A stretch of DNA of 44,340 nt from a virus. The position numbers were made by a program, and so were the translations under genes. The notes below the pieces were generated by a model that was given only the letters and a program-made list of their open reading frames with translations, ran no database searches and was not told the origin of the DNA. The stretch lies in the IMG/VR virus record IMGVR_UViG_3300021170_000034, positions 1 through 44,340 of that record; one strand, given 5' to 3'. This document shows positions 3,739-35,990 of this stretch, one piece after another. Position 1 is the stretch's first letter. Every line of letters begins with the position of its first letter.

Positions 3739-3936
3739 ATGGTGTGCCAAATACTTCATACGCGAGATTCGGAGAATGGGCGGGACCGCGAGCGTCGGAC
3801 ATGGCACCGCCTTTCCGTGTTTGAGGCAAAAGCTTTCGCCGACACACTTCCAGTCCGCGGCAACCGGCGAGGCCGTGTCAAGATCGTGAACCTCGATACC
3901 GGCGAGGTAGTCCGTGACGATCCACCAATCGAGTGA
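3739..3936 (+). CDS. Hypothetical early protein, 65 aa
   Basis: A 65-residue protein from the ATG at 3739, 14 bases after the preceding stop. The basic middle (SENGRDRERRTWHRLSVFEA) is followed by a beta-hairpin-like end (GRVKIVNLDTGEVV). Unknown function. The following 169 bases (3937-4105) contain no convincing gene. Confidence 0.5.
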   Translation: MVCQILHTRDSENGRDRERRTWHRLSVFEAKAFADTLPVRGNRRGRVKIVNLDTGEVVRDDPPIE

Positions 3937-5232: not shown

Positions 5233-5582
5233 CTGACGCATATCAATGGGAGAATGGCTGGACTTGCCCAGTCTGCAAGTTAACTCGTTCAAACGATGAC
5301 GATCCTTGCATTCCTGGACTACCAGGCGTGAAATACGCTTGCTGCGGTCACGGTGGCATGGGGATAAACGAAGGCTATCTCTATTTTGAGAACGGAGTTC
5401 GGATCGGAATGATCGTCACGTCAATTTCATACGACGATGGAAAAGCCCGCATCGACGTTCCAGATCGGGCGAGGGTTGCCCTTGAAGGCATATTCAAAAT
5501 AGCGCGCGATTCCCGTGTCTCTAGTGAGATGGTGGGAATCGCAATTCGGAACCATCTCGCGCAGTGCACTCATGGGCAATAA
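5229..5582 (+). CDS. Small protein with a Cys-rich N-terminus
   Basis: A 117-residue protein whose first 40 residues hold cysteines at about positions 13, 16, 27, 38 and 39 (WTCPVCKLTR, then KYACCGHGG). This suggests a zinc-binding knuckle. The rest is a beta-rich segment and a final helix. It is the last gene of the coupled early run and sits directly upstream of the HNH endonuclease. Function is not known. Confidence 0.65.
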   Translation: MTDAYQWENGWTCPVCKLTRSNDDDPCIPGLPGVKYACCGHGGMGINEGYLYFENGVRIGMIVTSISYDDGKARIDVPDRARVALEGIFKIARDSRVSSEMVGIAIRNHLAQCTHGQ

Positions 5583-5590
5583 GAGAATCG

Positions 5591-6082
5591 ATGCCTAGCT
5601 GGTGCAGCAAAGAGGTCTACGAGCGGCTTTTTGCCGAGGTTGCCGCGCGCGACGGCATGAGTTGTCATTGGTGCAAGCGACCAGTGGTGCGGCACAAGAC
5701 GCCGAATGGCCGTCAGGTGCCGAGGGATACGGCAACCCTTGATCACGTCGTCGAGATTTTCAACGGCGGGGCCATGCTCGATCCGGCCAATCTCGTCATT
5801 GCGTGCTTTAACTGTAATTGCAATGTGCGGTCTGGCAAACTCTCACGGGAGATCGCCCTCGGGCTGCGGGTCGCCAAAGGGAAGCCGGCGAAGACAGCGG
5901 TAGGGACGCGCGGCAGGCGCCGTCGTCGGCGGCTGATTCAGCGGAGCGCGCTTGACGACGTTGCGAGGTGGGATACCGCGATGCGGCTAATCACTAGCGA
6001 GCCGCGTAATCGCATTCCCAAGCCGCAGCTTTCGGCCGAACAAACCGCAGCACTTCTTCGCGATGGCGGCGCAGATAGATGA
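5591..6082 (+). CDS. HNH endonuclease
   Basis: A 163-residue protein of the HNH nuclease superfamily. Visible motif parts are the first zinc pair C25-x-x-C28 (MSCHWCKRP), the catalytic D51-H52 (TATLDHVVE), the Asn-containing ANLVIACFNCN segment and the second pair C72-x-x-C75. After the domain comes a very basic tail with seven arginines in a row. I chose the ATG at 5591 because the frame upstream of it overlaps the previous gene. HNH proteins in phages act as packaging nucleases, free-standing homing enzymes or intron-encoded endonucleases. This one is far from the terminase and outside the two capsid introns, so a free-standing mobility enzyme is plausible but unproven. Confidence 0.88.
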   Translation: MPSWCSKEVYERLFAEVAARDGMSCHWCKRPVVRHKTPNGRQVPRDTATLDHVVEIFNGGAMLDPANLVIACFNCNCNVRSGKLSREIALGLRVAKGKPAKTAVGTRGRRRRRRLIQRSALDDVARWDTAMRLITSEPRNRIPKPQLSAEQTAALLRDGGADR

Positions 6083-25794: not shown

Positions 25795-26310
25795 TCAGGT
25801 GATGGCGCCCTGCGCGAACGGGCGCTGGATGATCGCCTGCACGGTCGCGGTTGCCGAGGCCACGGTCGCCGCATTGACGCTGATGCAATTGACGACCTGC
25901 TTGCCGGCCGACGCGGTCGAGGAGACCGAGCCTGCGGTCGCCGAGAGATAGAGCGGCACCGCCGGGCTGATCTTGGTCGCGGTCTTCGCGATCTTGGCGA
26001 CGCCGCCGATCTGATACCAACTGTAGCTCGTGGTTGCCGTGTTCGCTGTCATCGACACGGCGAGTGGTTGGTTCTGGTTTGCCGTGTGCGGCGCGAGCGT
26101 CACGGTCTTCGCCAGCGGGTTGTAGGTCACGAGCGATCCGACCGCGAGCGAGGCAACGCCGGGCAGATAGATGAACTCGCCCGCGCCCTGCCCGGACGCG
26201 GTATCGATGCCGCGCACGATCATCCCGACCTGTACGGTGCGCGCCGCGCTCGCATCGATATTGGTGAAGTCGACGACGCCCTGGAACGTCTCAGCCGGCT
26301 TGAAGGCCAT
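25795..26310 (-). CDS. Capsid decoration-type protein, copy B
   Basis: A 171-residue beta-rich protein with a strong ribosome-binding site (AAAGGAGAATCCA). From about residue 43 to the end it is clearly homologous to the protein at 28311-28835: GEFIYLPGV, GSLVTYNPL, LAPHTANQ, VPLYLSATAGSVSSTASAGK and ATVQAIIQRPFAQG all have near-identical counterparts. The first 40 residues differ. Proteins directly after the major capsid gene with this composition usually decorate the capsid. It overlaps the end of the glycosyltransferase gene by 20 bases. Confidence 0.7.
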   Translation of the reverse strand: MAFKPAETFQGVVDFTNIDASAARTVQVGMIVRGIDTASGQGAGEFIYLPGVASLAVGSLVTYNPLAKTVTLAPHTANQNQPLAVSMTANTATTSYSWYQIGGVAKIAKTATKISPAVPLYLSATAGSVSSTASAGKQVVNCISVNAATVASATATVQAIIQRPFAQGAIT

Positions 26311-27751
26311 TGGATTCTCCTTTGCTCATCTCGTGCGCTATGGTGGGCAACAGCCCGTCGCCGTGGACAAAGAGGATTGCGTCGGCATCGGCGAGCAGCC
26401 GCGCAAGTTTCTCGAATTTCTGCGCCTGGACGTACATCGCGTAGGACGAACGAAAATGCCGACCCGCGCAAATTACCTTGATGCGGCGCTTCTCCGGATC
26501 GTTCTCGTCCTGCGGATAGGCGTGTGCCTGCCCGTCGTCGGCATCGGAGGAGTCATAGCCGTAAAGATGAATCTCGCGATAGCCGAGCGCATAAGCCATC
26601 GAGATCGCGACGAGGCCGGACGTGGTGCCGCCGCCAATCAGGTCCGCCGTCGTGCCGGGCGGGATATGATCGACGAGACCATCGGATGCGGTATGAAGAA
26701 CGTCCACGTCGCGAAACGCGAGGTGCTCGAAGAGGCTCGGATGACATTGCGAGGCGAGGATGTAACGATGCGCGGAAAACGTGCGCACGAATTCGAGGTT
26801 TTCCGGGCGCGGATCGATGATGACCTGATAATCCGCCGTGACGCCGCGCTCGTTCAAGAAACGCGCAGCATTGTTGAGCGCAAAAACCGTATGCCGCGCG
26901 TCGGAATGCCCTTTGATGAACGGCACGTGGCTTTTGAGCGACGGGCCGCCGCCGACAAGGACGGCAATCCCGGTGTGGGCCGGATTACCTTTGAGCCATG
27001 GGAGCGGGCGCCGCGAATTGATCTCGATATGGCGGAAGAGTATTTCATCGGACGTGTTCGGCAGCGCCTGGATTTGCTGGATTTCCGACGAGACGAAGCC
27101 GGCAGGAATCTCCGACGCGACCGTCTCGCCCTCGACGCGCCAGTGCGTCTCGATCCATTCGACATCCGGCAGCTCGTGCGGCTTCTCGTGGCCGTGGAAG
27201 TAGACGATGCGCGCATCGCGCAGCCCGTGATGCTTCGCATCGCCCTTGAAGCTCACGACGTGGCCAGGAAAGAGTATGTCGATGACCTTATGCGGCTGTG
27301 CCCGCATCCAGTCCATGTCGTTCTCGCCGGACCAGGTCTCGTAGACCTTGCGTTGCCCGGCCGGCACCAACGCGACGCCGTTGCACACCGTCGTCGAATG
27401 GAACGGATCGCGCGGCAGCGCTATCGTGTTCGAGTTGAGGCAATAATCCGCGAGATGGTCGATGTTTCCGGTGACGACCGTGTCGAGCCCGACAAGGATC
27501 ATCGGCTCATCGAGGCGGTAAGGCTCGATGCACGCACCGTAAGCCGGCGGCGCCGAATCGATCAGGATTTGCAGCACGTCGCGACCGCCGAGGTCGCGGC
27601 GGCGATCGGTGAACAGCACAAACCGGTGTGGCCGCGTGAGGTTGCGCGCGAAGCCGTCGAACAACTTCATCACCCACGACTCGTCGTAGCAGCACGAGAA
27701 GTCGCGGGAGAGCGCATTGGCGTGCCATAGCAGCGTGACGATATTCAGCAT
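26291..27751 (-). CDS. Glycosyltransferase fused to a DUF115/Maf-like domain
   Basis: A 486-residue two-domain protein. Residues 1-200 look like a nucleotide-sugar glycosyltransferase of GT-A type (opening LNIVTLLWHANALSRDFSCC; MILVGLDTVVTGNIDHLADY near 84-103; CNGVALVPAG). The usual DxD motif appears as GLD, so the first acidic residue is missing. Residues 260-480 match the DUF115/MptE-like domain found in Maf flagellin-glycosylation proteins: VLVGGGPSLKSHV at about 264-276, DYQVIIDPR, and IGGGTTSGLVAISMAYALGY followed by REIHLYGYD. It probably transfers a sugar to a virion or host surface protein. It starts inside the end of the acyltransferase gene, so the two are coexpressed. Confidence 0.85.
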   Translation of the reverse strand: MLNIVTLLWHANALSRDFSCCYDESWVMKLFDGFARNLTRPHRFVLFTDRRRDLGGRDVLQILIDSAPPAYGACIEPYRLDEPMILVGLDTVVTGNIDHLADYCLNSNTIALPRDPFHSTTVCNGVALVPAGQRKVYETWSGENDMDWMRAQPHKVIDILFPGHVVSFKGDAKHHGLRDARIVYFHGHEKPHELPDVEWIETHWRVEGETVASEIPAGFVSSEIQQIQALPNTSDEILFRHIEINSRRPLPWLKGNPAHTGIAVLVGGGPSLKSHVPFIKGHSDARHTVFALNNAARFLNERGVTADYQVIIDPRPENLEFVRTFSAHRYILASQCHPSLFEHLAFRDVDVLHTASDGLVDHIPPGTTADLIGGGTTSGLVAISMAYALGYREIHLYGYDSSDADDGQAHAYPQDENDPEKRRIKVICAGRHFRSSYAMYVQAQKFEKLARLLADADAILFVHGDGLLPTIAHEMSKGESNGLQAG

Positions 27752-28311
27752 ACGATCCGCATCCGTCTTTCGCGCCACTCCGGCTTGATCTTGACCAGCG
27801 CGCCATCGCGCCGCAGTAGAAAATTCGCCGGCACGTCTTTCTCGACGACGGTGCCCGCCGCGATCATCGCATCATCCCCGATGGAGATCCCCGGCAGGAC
27901 GACGGCGTTCGCACCGATGCCGACACCCGAACCGACAACGACCGTCCAACGCCCGCGCGTGAACGCGCTCACGTCGAAGCCGCGCTTGTGCGCTGCCGGC
28001 CAGCGGTCGTTGCAGATCGTGACGTTCGGCCCGATGAAGCAATCGTCGCCGAAGCGAAAGCCCGGCCCCATCGCAACACCCTGCGAGACGATGCAGCGGT
28101 CGCCGAACGCAGGTCCGTCGAGCGTGGCGCAGCTCGCCACATTGCAGTCCTCGCCGAGGATCGTGCCGCGGATCACGCTCGCAAACTGCCAAATCTTAGT
28201 GCGCGCACCGACGCGCGCATTGGAGACGAATGCACGTTCGTGAATGAACGCGCTCGGATGAACGAGAGGAGACGGCCCACGGGCCGCCTCCGTTGTTGTG
28301 AGCGTCGACAT
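27745..28311 (-). CDS. Left-handed beta-helix (hexapeptide-repeat) acyltransferase
   Basis: A 188-residue protein built of hexapeptide repeats: VGARTKIWQFASVIRGTILG, EDCNVASCATLDGPAFGDRC, FGDDCFIGPNVTICND, GSGVGIGANAVVLPGISIGD and DAMIAAGTVVEKDVP. This is the trimeric acyltransferase fold (WbpD-like sugar N/O-acetyltransferases), usually acetyl-CoA dependent. The likely substrate is a nucleotide-activated amino sugar, to be used by the adjoining glycosyltransferase. Start at 28311 (MSTLTTTEAA); the upstream decoration gene's stop overlaps it by one base. Confidence 0.88.
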   Translation of the reverse strand: MSTLTTTEAARGPSPLVHPSAFIHERAFVSNARVGARTKIWQFASVIRGTILGEDCNVASCATLDGPAFGDRCIVSQGVAMGPGFRFGDDCFIGPNVTICNDRWPAAHKRGFDVSAFTRGRWTVVVGSGVGIGANAVVLPGISIGDDAMIAAGTVVEKDVPANFLLRRDGALVKIKPEWRERRMRIVC

Positions 28312-28835
28312 CAAGTGGTCTGACCCTGCGCGAACGGCCGGTTGATCAGCGCCTGGATGGTCGTCGTGGCCGACGCGACCGTTGCGGCATTGACCGTGAT
28401 GCAGTTGAGCAACTGCTTGCCGGCCGACGCGGTCGACTGGACCGACCCGGCGGTCGCGCTCAGATACAGCGGCACGTTGGGCGAAGTCTTGCCGCCGGTG
28501 ACGCGCTTGATCACCGCCGCGCCGCCGATCTGATACCACGCGTATCCGGTCGTCGACGTGTTGGCCGCCATCGCCACAGCCACGGGCTGGGCGAGATTGG
28601 CCGTATGCGGCGCAAGCGTCGTCGTCTTGTTGAGCGGATCATAGGTGACCAACGATCCGATGGCGGTCGAGCCGACGCCGGCGAGCCAGATGAACTCGCC
28701 ACCGTGGTAGGTGGTCTGGTCCATCGCCGTGATGATCTCGCCCGGCAGCACCGGCTGGTAGACGTTCGCAGCCGACGCGACGATGGCGCCGATCGGGGGA
28801 AGCCCGAAGCGGGGAGAAGTCGGAATCCAAGCCAT
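28311..28835 (-). CDS. Capsid decoration-type protein, copy A
   Basis: A 174-residue beta-rich protein, the first gene after the major capsid gene. The ATG at 28835 has GGGAGGAGAACA upstream. The frame extended further right is inside the capsid gene and not coded. From GGEFIWLAGVGSTAIGSLVT to RPFAQGQTT it parallels the protein at 25795-26310 with roughly two thirds of residues identical by eye. The N-terminal 40 residues (IPTSPRFGLPPIGAIVASAA) are different. It presumably binds the capsid surface. The duplication suggests two decoration sites or domain swapping. Confidence 0.7.
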   Translation of the reverse strand: MAWIPTSPRFGLPPIGAIVASAANVYQPVLPGEIITAMDQTTYHGGEFIWLAGVGSTAIGSLVTYDPLNKTTTLAPHTANLAQPVAVAMAANTSTTGYAWYQIGGAAVIKRVTGGKTSPNVPLYLSATAGSVQSTASAGKQLLNCITVNAATVASATTTIQALINRPFAQGQTT

Positions 28836-28849
28836 GTTGTTCTCCTCCC

Positions 28850-30558
28850 TTATGCGCCGATGCCGCCCTGCAGGAACCGGTTCGACATGGCCACATTGCC
28901 GGCCCAGGCAATGAGCTTGACCATGGCGTCCTGGTTCACTGAGAAGCGATCGGGATCGAGCGGCACCATGTCCCTGTCCTTGTGCGGGCGCAGGAACAGA
29001 TACTCGCAATTGAGCAAATACATCGTGCTCGCCGGCGCGCCCGAGCCCGAAAGCCAGGAACCGCCGGAGCCCAGCGTCGTGACGTTGCCGGTCGAGTTGC
29101 CTTGGAAGCCGCCGTCGTAGACGACATCGGCGTCCATGAACTTGAGCGAGGCGAAGCCCGCCATGCCATTGCGATCGTCGGTGATGCGCTGGATGGCCTG
29201 GAGAGATTCCCAGTAGTAGCGGAAGTACACGTTGTCGGCGATAAAGAGGTCCGGACGGTCAGCCTGGCGCGCCTGCGCGAGCCATGCCCGGTTCATCATC
29301 GTCTGGATCGTCGCGGCGCCAGCCGTGAGGCCCGCCGACGCGAACGATTGCCACGCGTTCTCCCAGAAACCCCACACCGACGAGTCGATGCCGCCGATGG
29401 TGCCGGAGTTGTTGGTCGCCGAGACGAGGAGCTGCAGACCGCCGATCTGCTTTCCCCCGTCTGCTGTCAGCAGTGTTATCGCATCGGCTCTTTATCCGAT
29501 GCTTCTATGCGTCACCGCATAGGTCAGACTATATCTTCGCTTCGGTTGAAGCGTCGGGAGCTCGTGGGCGGATTATTCTTTCGTCACCGCCTAGTCGTTA
29601 CACCTTCCGCACCTCTCGCCTTTTGGGCTTCATGCGCGGCTTGGCTCGGTATTGTCTCTGCGGCCAATATTTCCGCCAAATCAAAAGCTCAACAAACCCG
29701 CCTTTGGTTTTTCGGAATATTGGCTGTTCGGAGAGTTTCACCGAATTCACCCGATTTTACAACGGCACAGTCACGCGGCGAGCGCGAAAGTTGGTCTACC
29801 GTTGGAGTAGCAGTCGTTGGAGAGATTGTTCTGCATCGTGCGCTCGGCGTTGCCGATGCGCGATTCGAGCAGATCGATCATCTTCTCTTTTCCGGAATTC
29901 TGGAGCATTTCCAGCCCGGAGATGGAAACCGCCGCCGCAGCCTGGGCGATCGGGTATTGTGCCGCGGTGAACACGTCCGACGGCGTGATGTTGAGGATGT
30001 CGTAGCCGGAATACCGCTTGTAGGTGCCGTTTTCCGAGTCAGGTTTGTTATCGCGCGGCTCTTTATCCGCGCTTCTGCACGTCGCCGTGCAGCTCAGACT
30101 ATCTCATCATCCCGTAAGGATGTCGGGCGCTCGTGGGCGGATTATTGTTGGGACTCACCGCCTAGTCGTTACACCTTCCGCGCTACCATTTCCCGGCGCG
30201 GCTTGGCTCGGTATTGTCTCCGTGGCATCTTCTTGATAACCAGCCGCTCCTGTGCGAGCGCGCGATACACAGATATGCGCCCAACAAGTTTGGATGGTTG
30301 ATCGAAGATGATATTAACGCCGGAGAGTTTCACCGAATTCACCCGATTTGCGCTCGTGGCTTACGCCGCGAGGGAGCTAATAGCTAACTCGATCTCCTGC
30401 ACGATCGCCTGACCGCCGTCGAAGGACTTGATCTTGCCCTTCTCGCGCAGCCGGCGAAGCAACGCGTTGTTCTTCGTGACGTTGTCCGCCAGCTTGCGCG
30501 AGCGGTTGTAGAGCGTGGTCGTGGTGATCTCGCTCCAGTTTGTGTTGGGCACGGTCAT
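28850..30558 (-). CDS. Major capsid protein, split by two group I introns
   Basis: Three exons on the minus strand: 30558-30387 (172 nt), 30039-29798 (242 nt) and 29467-28850 (618 nt). Joined, they code 343 residues: MTVPNTNWSEITTTTLYNRS at the start, GGQAIVQEIE-Y-SENGTYKR across junction 1, then SISGLEMLQNSGKEKMIDLL, YSNG-TADGGKQIGGLQLLV across junction 2, and GIDSSVWGFWENAW onward. The joined sequence has the flow of a known phage major-capsid family in which an EIEYxENGTYxRYSGY run and GGKQIGGLQ are continuous. Unspliced RNA would stop after 65 residues. A good ribosome-binding site (AAAGGAGATATC) precedes the ATG, and the scaffold gene lies directly upstream. Junctions were chosen because both end exon 5' sides in U, end the intron in G and keep the frame. 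Confidence 0.88.
29468..29797 (-). ncRNA. Group I intron 2 in the major capsid gene (330 nt)
   Basis: The 5' exon ends CAACGGU (29804-29798), which pairs with the internal guide GCCGUUG (29766-29760) over 7 bp with the required U-G pair at the splice site. Core blocks follow: a P/P4-type region at 29757-29729 containing AAUUCGGUGAAACUC, a Q-like AAUACCGAGCCAAGCC at 29658-29634, an R-like ACGACUAGGCGG within 29610-29584, and the S element AAGAUAUAGUC (about 29536-29526). A 3' hairpin CUAUGCG-GUGA-CGCAUAG (29522-29505) has a GNRA loop. A second hairpin, GCAUCGG-AUAAAGAG-CCGAUGC, spans 29502-29481. The intron ends in G29468. No ORF of useful size lies inside, so it would need a maturase or endonuclease from elsewhere or self-splice alone. 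Confidence 0.88.
30040..30386 (-). ncRNA. Group I intron 1 in the major capsid gene (347 nt)
   Basis: The exon end GAGU (30390-30387) plus U30386 pairs with the guide AGCUC (30378-30374), giving a U-G pair at the splice site. A P2-like hairpin (CUCGCGGC-GUAA-GCCACGAG; GNRA loop) follows. The core blocks match intron 2 exactly over 29 bases (30349-30321), 25 bases (30220-30196), 27 bases (30181-30155) and 18 bases (30146-30129). The S element reads GAGAUAGUCUGAGC near 30104-30091. The 3' hairpins are CUGCACG-GCGA-CGUGCAG (30092-30075) and GCGCGG-AUAAAGAG-CCGCGC (30072-30053). The intron ends in G30040 (CCUG|AC). No ORF is encoded. The stems differ from intron 2 by compensatory changes. Confidence 0.9.
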
Positions 30559-33536: not shown

Positions 33537-35987
33537 TTACGTCAGCCTCGCCGCGTCCCCGCTTTCCAGATGCGTCATGCGCACGGCCGCCATGGCGTCC
33601 TGCTTGGCGCCGCGCTGGGTATCGAGGGCGAGCCGCTCGCGGTCGGTCTGCGCCTGCACGGCCGCCTTTTCGCGCTCGATCGCTTGTGCCGTGGCGTCGC
33701 GCTGCTGCGTCGCTGCCAGTTTCTCGCGCTCGATCTGCTCGCGCCCTTGCGTCTCGCGCTCGCGCTGCGCCAGAGCCTGCGAGCTGTCGGCCGCCGAGCC
33801 CTTGCCTTGCTGCGGCTGCTGGCTCGGATGTGGTGGCATCTGCGCGATGGCGTCAAACGCCTTCTCGATCGTCTCCTCGAGCGAGCGCGCGACCGGGAAG
33901 CCGCGCACGCCGAACAGCGCCACTTCTTTGGCAAGCGACGCCAGCGCCGGATTGCCCTGCGCCATCGGCACGATTTGCTCCATCAGCGGCACGAACTCGG
34001 AGAGGAAATCGGTCCGCGCTTTCTTCTCGGCCTGCTCGTCGGGCGCGATCGTCGAGTCAGCCTCGATATCGATGCGGAAGCCATGGATGCCGTCGTCCTT
34101 GATGAGTTGGACGGCTTGGTCGAACTGGTCCTGCTTCTGCTTGTTCGCGGCCTCGATCGCATGGACCTGCTGCGCCATCTGCTGCCACTTGGCGAGCGCC
34201 TGCTGATAGGCGACGACCTGCGGATCGGGCGGCGGTTGCGGGGCCTGCGGCGACCCGCCGGCGCTATTGGGTGCGCCCGGCGGCTGCGGTGCGCCATTCA
34301 TCGCCGGCGCGCCGGGTGTTTGTTGTGGGGCCTGCTGCGGCTGCTGCTGCGCCGCCTGAATGCGGGCGAGAATGCTCTGCACCGGCTCGGCTGGCTTGGG
34401 CGGCAGTTGTGGCACCGGCGCGAGCTGCGGAAACCCAGTGATCAGAGAGATCGTCTTCGCCGAGAAGTGCTCGGCGATCACAGCACCCATAAGTCGCAAT
34501 AGATCGCGGGCCAGGCGGGCCACGTCCTTTTGCTGCGGCGTGATGCGCCGGGTCGAGAACACGGCCTTCAATTCCTGCGCGCCCAGCGTTTCGTCGGGCT
34601 GCGTCATGCCGCGCATGATGTCGCCGATGCCGGTGATCTCGTAAAGGATTGCCTTGACTCGGTCGCGCGCGTTGTAGAGTTGCAGCAGCGTCTCGGCGAT
34701 CTGCTGGATCGGCAGCCACTCGATGAAAGTCTTGAGGCCGCCCTTGTCGGCCCAGTTCTGCCAGTCGCCGACCGGGATCAACCGGTTGTCGGTACCCGGG
34801 TCCATTAATTGACTGAGCACAGTCTTCTCGTCGCCCGGATAGACGCCGGCGACGCGCAGCGCGGTCGTGAGCTTGTCGATGCGCGCCGTGAGGTGGTCGA
34901 GTTCGCGCGCCTGGTCCTGATACTCGATGTAGTCCGGAACCGGGATGCGCTTGTCGTTTGTCGTCGTCGCAAGCAGCGGATCGGGGTTGGCGAAGAAATC
35001 CGGTAGGCGTAGTGGATCATCCTTCTTATCGAGGACGATGTCGGGTGTCGCCGGTGCGATCCAGATCACCTCGCGCTTGCCCTTGTCCCAATACTCGCGG
35101 ACCTCCGCCTTCTTGTAGAGATCGGGCGGTACGTCCTTGCCGTCCCTGTCCTTCTCGGGCGAATGTGCCGGCGCGTAGTCGAGGTTGACCAGTTTTCCCT
35201 TGCGCTTGCCGAAACGCTTGATGAGTTCATCGCGTGTGAGATACGCGCGGTAGCGCACCCACGGCACCTCGGCCCATTGCCGGGCGGGGCCTTCGCGATA
35301 GTCCTCCCAGAAGACATACTGCGCGACGACTTCCTCATATTCGACCTCGCGGGCGTGTTCCTCGCCGCTTTCGTCGTCGCCCGCATTGTCGATGTCGCTG
35401 CCTTCCTCCTCGCGCCCGGTGTAGTCGGCATCCTCTTCGGCGAGCGCCGCCGCTTGATCCTCGCCCTCGCCTTCATCCTCCGCGGCGGCGGGCGTGGTCT
35501 CGCCTTGCGTCTTCGTGTCGGAAATCTCCTCGCCGAAGTGCGGCACGTAGAGCACGCGCGCAACGCCGCGTCCCGGTAGGAGCCGATCCTCGACCACGGA
35601 TTTCATCACCGCGTCGAAGTCGAAAGCCGAGGCCGAATAGGAAAGGCATCGCTCGAGCAACTGCGCCGCAAAGCGCGCGACCGGCGCCTGGTCCTTGAAG
35701 CGGCGGTCAACGTCAGGCTTGGGCGTGCGCGCGTAGAGCGTCGGCTTGAGCGTCTGCACGTTCGACCACAGCACATTGAAGCGATGCAGGCCGCTCATCT
35801 GCTCGCCGCGATCGTCGTCGCGGTAGCGCTTGACGATCTCGCGCGCCTGCTTGACCCACTTGCGCTCTTCCTTCTCGGCGATTTCCTCCTGCGCCATCCA
35901 ATAGGCATAGGTCGCCGCCTCGCCCGTGCCGAGATCGCTCTCGGTCTCGATGCGTTCTCCGGCCGATGCGGCGACAACGTCGACCAT
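33537..35987 (-). CDS. Portal protein
   Basis: An 816-residue protein from the ATG at 35987 (a TTG precedes it). Portal-like features are the N-terminal helices (EERKWVKQAREIVKRYRDDD), FNVLWSNVQTLKPTLYARTP, RCLSYSASAFDFDAVMKSVV, a clip/wing region with long acidic insert (about 175-215), and the stem-like segment AILYEITGIGDIMRGMTQPD, ETLGAQELKAVFSTRR. The C-terminal 250 residues are Q/P-rich then a long coiled helix (EREKLAATQQRDATAQAIER), like the barrel of P22-type portals. It forms the dodecameric ring for packaging and ejection. Its size is large but normal for this P22-like type. Confidence 0.87.
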   Translation of the reverse strand: MVDVVAASAGERIETESDLGTGEAATYAYWMAQEEIAEKEERKWVKQAREIVKRYRDDDRGEQMSGLHRFNVLWSNVQTLKPTLYARTPKPDVDRRFKDQAPVARFAAQLLERCLSYSASAFDFDAVMKSVVEDRLLPGRGVARVLYVPHFGEEISDTKTQGETTPAAAEDEGEGEDQAAALAEEDADYTGREEEGSDIDNAGDDESGEEHAREVEYEEVVAQYVFWEDYREGPARQWAEVPWVRYRAYLTRDELIKRFGKRKGKLVNLDYAPAHSPEKDRDGKDVPPDLYKKAEVREYWDKGKREVIWIAPATPDIVLDKKDDPLRLPDFFANPDPLLATTTNDKRIPVPDYIEYQDQARELDHLTARIDKLTTALRVAGVYPGDEKTVLSQLMDPGTDNRLIPVGDWQNWADKGGLKTFIEWLPIQQIAETLLQLYNARDRVKAILYEITGIGDIMRGMTQPDETLGAQELKAVFSTRRITPQQKDVARLARDLLRLMGAVIAEHFSAKTISLITGFPQLAPVPQLPPKPAEPVQSILARIQAAQQQPQQAPQQTPGAPAMNGAPQPPGAPNSAGGSPQAPQPPPDPQVVAYQQALAKWQQMAQQVHAIEAANKQKQDQFDQAVQLIKDDGIHGFRIDIEADSTIAPDEQAEKKARTDFLSEFVPLMEQIVPMAQGNPALASLAKEVALFGVRGFPVARSLEETIEKAFDAIAQMPPHPSQQPQQGKGSAADSSQALAQRERETQGREQIEREKLAATQQRDATAQAIEREKAAVQAQTDRERLALDTQRGAKQDAMAAVRMTHLESGDAARLT

Positions 35988-35990
35988 CAA

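Follow-up and report, generated by a model that had tools for sequence, protein, structure and literature searches.

Introns in phage capsid genes, and several introns within a single phage gene, are already known. The major capsid gene of mycobacteriophage LittleE carries an intron whose splicing was demonstrated by RT-PCR in 2013 (Pope et al., PMC3706429). It is likely a group I intron that follows a U at the end of the exon and itself ends in G, as do the introns described here, but it is single, is 819 bp long, contains an endonuclease gene and comes from a different phage group. The orf142 gene of Staphylococcus phage Twort has three group I introns, two of them highly similar and of subgroup IA2, and undergoes exon skipping (cited in PMC10136302). 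Twort is like our locus in that a single gene harbours more than one related group I intron; the gene and the phage are different. The third system that bears on this locus is the ssrA tag, which in E. coli has the sequence AANDENYALAA; its terminal Ala-Ala is the main determinant of recognition by ClpXP, YALAA suffices on GFP, and Ala tails are also among the ClpXP signals (PMC7652416).

The sequence analysed here, an IMG/VR virus record of 44,340 bases (the window), carries on its minus strand, at 30558-28850, a tailed-phage gene for the major head protein, divided into three exons. Exon 1 (30387-30558) comprises 57 codons plus one nucleotide (57.3 codons), exon 2 (29798-30039) is 242 nt long (80.7 codons), and exon 3 (28850-29467) holds 205 codons and the stop. 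When joined they give a single frame of 343 amino acids, or 344 codons counting the stop (172+242+618 nt), and this product matches the major head protein profile phrog_9953 over its full length (residues 2-341, E=2.2e-109). All 80 of 80 residues of exon 2 are in register with relatives, and the best relatives reach 84% identity in exon 3. The portal protein gene (phrog_12082, E=1.5e-174) lies upstream on the same strand at 33537-35990, in the context of a head module, and no second capsid gene is present in the window. Just downstream of the capsid gene (26291-28539, minus strand), genes for a glycosyltransferase (phrog_1962) and a hexapeptide-repeat protein stand between virion genes. A deoxycytidylate deaminase-like gene (PF00383) is found at 1712-2188 on the plus strand.

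The junctions 30387/30039 and 29798/29467 are the best of those considered. Seventeen uninterrupted relatives (72-87% identical) are continuous through the equivalents of EYSENGT and YSNGT, with no insertion, and across the first junction the spliced window agrees with one uninterrupted relative (L006) at 35 of 36 nt. A preliminary description of this DNA had proposed the same two junctions and a 343-residue capsid protein, and had named in advance a lack of continuity in homologues as a result that would refute it. The continuity of the relatives confirms its coordinates, with the frame kept, and the phrog_9953 match bears out its product; the 65, 67 and 175 aa that it gave for the three pieces are lengths of open reading frames (the 65 aa being confirmed) and not of exons. 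An alternative 3' site for the second intron, 3 nt upstream, would add a Leu (YSNG-(L)-TADGG), and was dropped because this residue is absent from all 17 uninterrupted relatives. Purifying selection acts on each of the three exons, with dN/dS of about 0.09-0.14; for the whole gene dN is about 0.09-0.16 and dS 0.66-1.5.

Both inserts match the Rfam group I intron model RF00028 over its full length in cmscan searches, above the gathering threshold of 50 bits. For the first (I1; 30040-30386, minus strand, 347 nt) the match spans 30395-30075 with 78.2 bits (E=2.6e-18), and for the second (I2; 29468-29797, minus strand, 330 nt) it spans 29790-29505 with 57.0 bits (E=5.8e-12); no other Rfam match in the window exceeds threshold. 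The borders, GAGU/...G/AC in I1 and CAACGGU/...G/ACAG in I2, provide a U.G pair at the 5' splice site and a terminal G in both. The preliminary description was thus right in recognising two group I introns with these terminal features in the capsid gene, and its condition that a covariance search should score above threshold is fulfilled. In I2, where the pairings were read from the sequence, P1 has 7 bp (CAACGGU/GCCGUUG) ending in U.G, and the chosen 3' site allows a P10 of 4 bp (ACAG/CUGU). In I1, P1 is shorter, with 4 exon base pairs plus intron pairs, and no P10 is evident by eye; P2 (with a GUAA loop), P9 and P9.2 are predicted to fold. A GGCGG...CCGCC hairpin occurs in both introns, a P7.1/P7.2 hairpin between P7 and P3 being a trait of subgroup IA, for which no subgroup model was applied. 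No endonuclease ORF of note lies inside I1 or I2, so that the criterion for a homing intron is unmet. Far from both, at 5564-6082 on the plus strand, is a free-standing HNH endonuclease-like ORF (PF01844, E=4e-5), which might work in trans against alleles that lack an intron, although there is no evidence for this.

We consider it highly likely that the inserts are a pair of small group I introns from one lineage, both without an ORF, which remove themselves, splicing itself being inferred from the sequence. Each would fold as a guanosine-dependent ribozyme and excise itself by two transesterifications, and the three exons would thereby be joined in the 343-aa frame; this rests on anatomy and homology. 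Skipping of exon 2, unlike the skipping in Twort orf142, would shift the reading frame, and the splice sites of these two similar introns must therefore be matched faithfully. Automated ORF calling does give separate frames here, as it would if the inserts stayed unspliced and the gene were dead or yielded three separate peptides. Against that stand the two RF00028 matches, the exact continuity of the exons, purifying selection across all three and the lack of a second capsid gene; these rule out a chance resemblance or a broken gene, and a persistently unspliced gene is extremely improbable.

The two introns are related. Their cores have identical blocks of 29 and 27 nt in common, and compensating changes separate them in P8, P9 and P9.2. 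Among ten related introns, both partners have changed in 12 of 14 pairs of P9/P9.2, and pairing is kept in 96% of the alignment cells as against 73% in shuffles, none of 500 shuffles scoring as high. Further afield, the 3' domain of I2 is 82-84% identical over 65 nt to the TerL intron of Streptococcus thermophilus phages, and the core of I1 is 85% identical over about 90 nt to the recA intron of Bacillus phage SP-15; these introns lie in other genes and their read-through tails are not degron-like. A search with a 23-nt core string found 11 contigs, eight with an intron in the window's capsid family and two (L083, L084) with one in a different capsid family. Viral contigs contained no match to the exact 27-nt P3-P4 string of the window, and searches of 84,980 genomes with two core patterns were likewise negative. 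Many late genes carry the wider core, several capsid families being prominent; a lineage restricted to capsid genes was rejected, as this core is also found in tape measure, tail sheath, tail fibre, head morphogenesis, polymerase and PhoH genes. On one contig (L305, minus strand) the intron P9 motif occurs twice, at 908-938 and 1461-1491, with a spacing of 553 nt, which may reflect a double intron within a gene that is unidentified.

The identical core stretches, the absence of an ORF from both introns and their pairing, with weak support, in one of two trees would fit an origin of one from the other by transposition within the gene, for example by reverse splicing into a new site. We think this, as against two separate arrivals, possible but less likely than not: the sister pair has support of only 47/36 and is lost when more rows are included, and both introns fall within a clade of 41 introns (support 97/82), 30 of which are from the window's capsid family.

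Relatives of the capsid gene, gathered by searches with exon 3 and exon 2, show that it is a recurrent intron target overlooked by ORF-based annotation. Most relatives are continuous and about 1 in 8 is split. Intron borders in these were placed, by inference, where the protein alignment was best and the exon ended in U and the intron in G. There are about 15 insertion positions in the family, which in the residue numbering of the window include 27/28, 62, 63, 66, 69-71, 85, ~143, ~154, 164, 171, ~291 and ~299; the window's own sites, 58 and 138, were seen nowhere else among the relatives. At least six other contigs (L031, L120, L149, L191, L264 and L265), some closely related to one another, carry two or more insertions in the capsid gene. 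RF00028 scored above threshold for six capsid introns (in L029, L031, L045, L086, L089 and L120) and for one more, of L265, with weaker matches for some others. Translations by inspection indicate that inserts of several relatives hold GIY-YIG-, LAGLIDADG- or HNH-like ORFs. Introns at residue 27/28 (in L020, L031, L067, L085, L091, L173, L188, L198 and L265) often contain a GIY-YIG-like ORF; those of L020, L031, L067, L085, L173, L188 and others lie in the same capsid gene and belong to the same core family (the 97/82 clade) as I1 and I2, from which they differ in site, in the GIY-YIG-like ORF and in an immediate stop. Twelve introns at this site stop at once, mostly as GTT/TAA, so that no residues are added. 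Elsewhere in the family (L264, 1-168, and L235, ~3820-3860), P7 appears to read GAGCA/UGCUC in place of GACUA/UAGUC, a natural case of compensation within the helix that binds guanosine.

The preliminary description, correct as to the introns, had overlooked how both read-through frames end. Translation of exon 1 into unspliced I1 gives ...EIELAISSLAA-stop, the intron contributing ISSLAA and a UAA that lies inside the GUAA loop of P2 (30361-30381, minus strand), and translation of exon 2 into unspliced I2 gives ...YSNGRPTFALAA followed by a stop, the tail being PTFALAA (29771-29794, minus strand), to be compared with the YALAA of ssrA. In both introns the in-frame stop falls within about nine codons of intron entry and upstream of the ribozyme core, and both tails (SLAA and FALAA) meet an ssrA-type criterion of C-terminal Ala-Ala preceded by Leu. 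Ribosomes that entered an intron before splicing, as we infer they may, would meet this early stop, and the codons ahead of it, -SLAA or -FALAA, would mimic the ssrA degron. The truncated products would have 65 residues for I1 and about 146 for I2 if I1 had already been spliced; ClpXP would then clear them instead of letting fragments join assembly, an inference for which the only support is enrichment at the sequence level. Such a tail resembles the ssrA tag in its C-terminal -LAA or -AA, and would differ from it in being encoded in cis at the intron 5' end, not added by tmRNA or RqcH.

To read the tails of the relatives, the capsid profile was used to set the exon frame. Among the distinct introns of the capsid family that do not stop immediately, 8 of 22 end in LAA and 10 of 22 in AA, the two without LAA being FAVAA (L062) and FARAA (L065). 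When the frames of these introns were shifted, LAA stood at the end in 0 of 68 and AA in 1 of 68 (Fisher, 4e-6 and 1e-6). The background was 0.14% LAA and 1.5% AA over all stops in GC-rich loci, and 0.5% and 2.7% over ORF ends; the P-values for enrichment lie between 4e-6, by Fisher test against shifted frames, and 1e-13, by binomial test. Counted by site, LAA is found at 6 of 16 (P 7e-8). The counts are not independent, since the introns are related, and the test is not fully blind, as the window and some relatives had already shown the pattern when counting began; both lower these figures, and the effect remains. The codons vary (Leu CTC, CTT, TTA and CTG; Ala GCG, GCC and GCT; stops TAA, TGA and TAG), as do the RNA contexts. 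At site ~291 of L235 the tail N-AANDDLPHGLAA, ending in a stop and including AAND at its start, is encoded directly after the splice site. This insert has no group I match in Rfam, and is called a putative group I intron only by a P7-like GAGCA/UGCUC, a P9-like hairpin and exon continuity.

VPLAA tails occur in L083 and L084, of another capsid family, and in L315, and a VKLAA tail in L111, of a tape measure cluster. Outside the capsid family LAA is rare, being found only in L111 and L083/L084 among about 80 read-through ORFs, most of which are not confirmed exon frames. A degron as a general rule for phage group I introns is not supported, as LAA is missing from the introns of streptococcal TerL and SP-15 recA and from the majority of the others sampled. 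Other introns of the capsid gene have tails in -LH, -VH or -G, or stop immediately. A second class of tails, with Leu, Val, Ala or Phe followed by His and the stop, is seen in L120 (5291-5548 and 5781-6036), L086, L029, L191 and L196, with the stop apparently in a hairpin loop. In the two introns proven by RT-PCR, the read-through ends are WNSVATAAA-stop (LittleE capsid) and SDDLAAAAA-stop (Baka tail), which resemble the Ala tails among ClpXP signals (PMC7652416); in the accessible portion of PMC3706429 we found no discussion of the LittleE read-through tail.

That these tails are shaped by RNA and not by the peptide has to be weighed. The introns would splice all the same, the LAA-stop would be a by-product of a GC-rich P2 with a GUAA or GUGA loop, and selection would act only to place an in-frame stop that spares the ribozyme. 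In about half of the introns with such tails the stop is indeed formed by the URA of a GURA loop that caps P2, and it sits in the loop of a GURA-capped hairpin in I1 and in L265, L107, L065, L083, L315, L323 and L324. The sequence GC-GURA-GC favours Ala before the stop, and part of the AA signal could therefore be RNA structure; by inspection, the His tails also seem to have their stop in a hairpin loop, and the introns are related by descent. However, no GURA hairpin is predicted at the stop in I2, L045, L259, L031, L235, L062, L084 or L111, in all of which LAA or VAA is nevertheless kept; a GURA loop accounts for the last Ala at most and not for Leu-Ala-Ala; Leu is specified by four types of codon; and the tail of L235 starts with AAND. 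We regard the RNA-structure account as possible, though not probable. Selection on the peptide itself, with the degron as part of the explanation and protease action inferred, seems to us somewhat better than an even bet on these sequences. Our most far-reaching reading, that group I introns in phage capsid genes, and in some tail genes, have evolved a cis-encoded copy of the ssrA degron at their 5' end that marks proteins translated from the precursor for ClpXP, we put at a probability of about 0.55.

The preliminary description called the two-intron capsid gene striking. The gene is real, and the adjective has to be tempered because a capsid intron was shown in LittleE in 2013 and introns are common among the relatives. 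What appears to be new is the pattern of intron-encoded, degron-like tails, as the open-access literature yielded nothing relevant on introns in combination with degrons or tags of the ssrA type. The pattern touches a long-standing question, namely how a self-splicing intron is tolerated in the gene that supplies most of the virion while ribosomes trail the polymerase. Two measures are suggested by the sequences: translation would stop before it reaches the ribozyme core, and a degron would immediately precede the stop. If this is true, the peptides read through from introns would be under selection, the 5' ends of introns could be annotated by their tails, and phages would be imitating tmRNA tagging. 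The intron would in effect bring its own quality control, and so could be tolerated in a gene that is highly expressed and whose truncated product might poison assembly.
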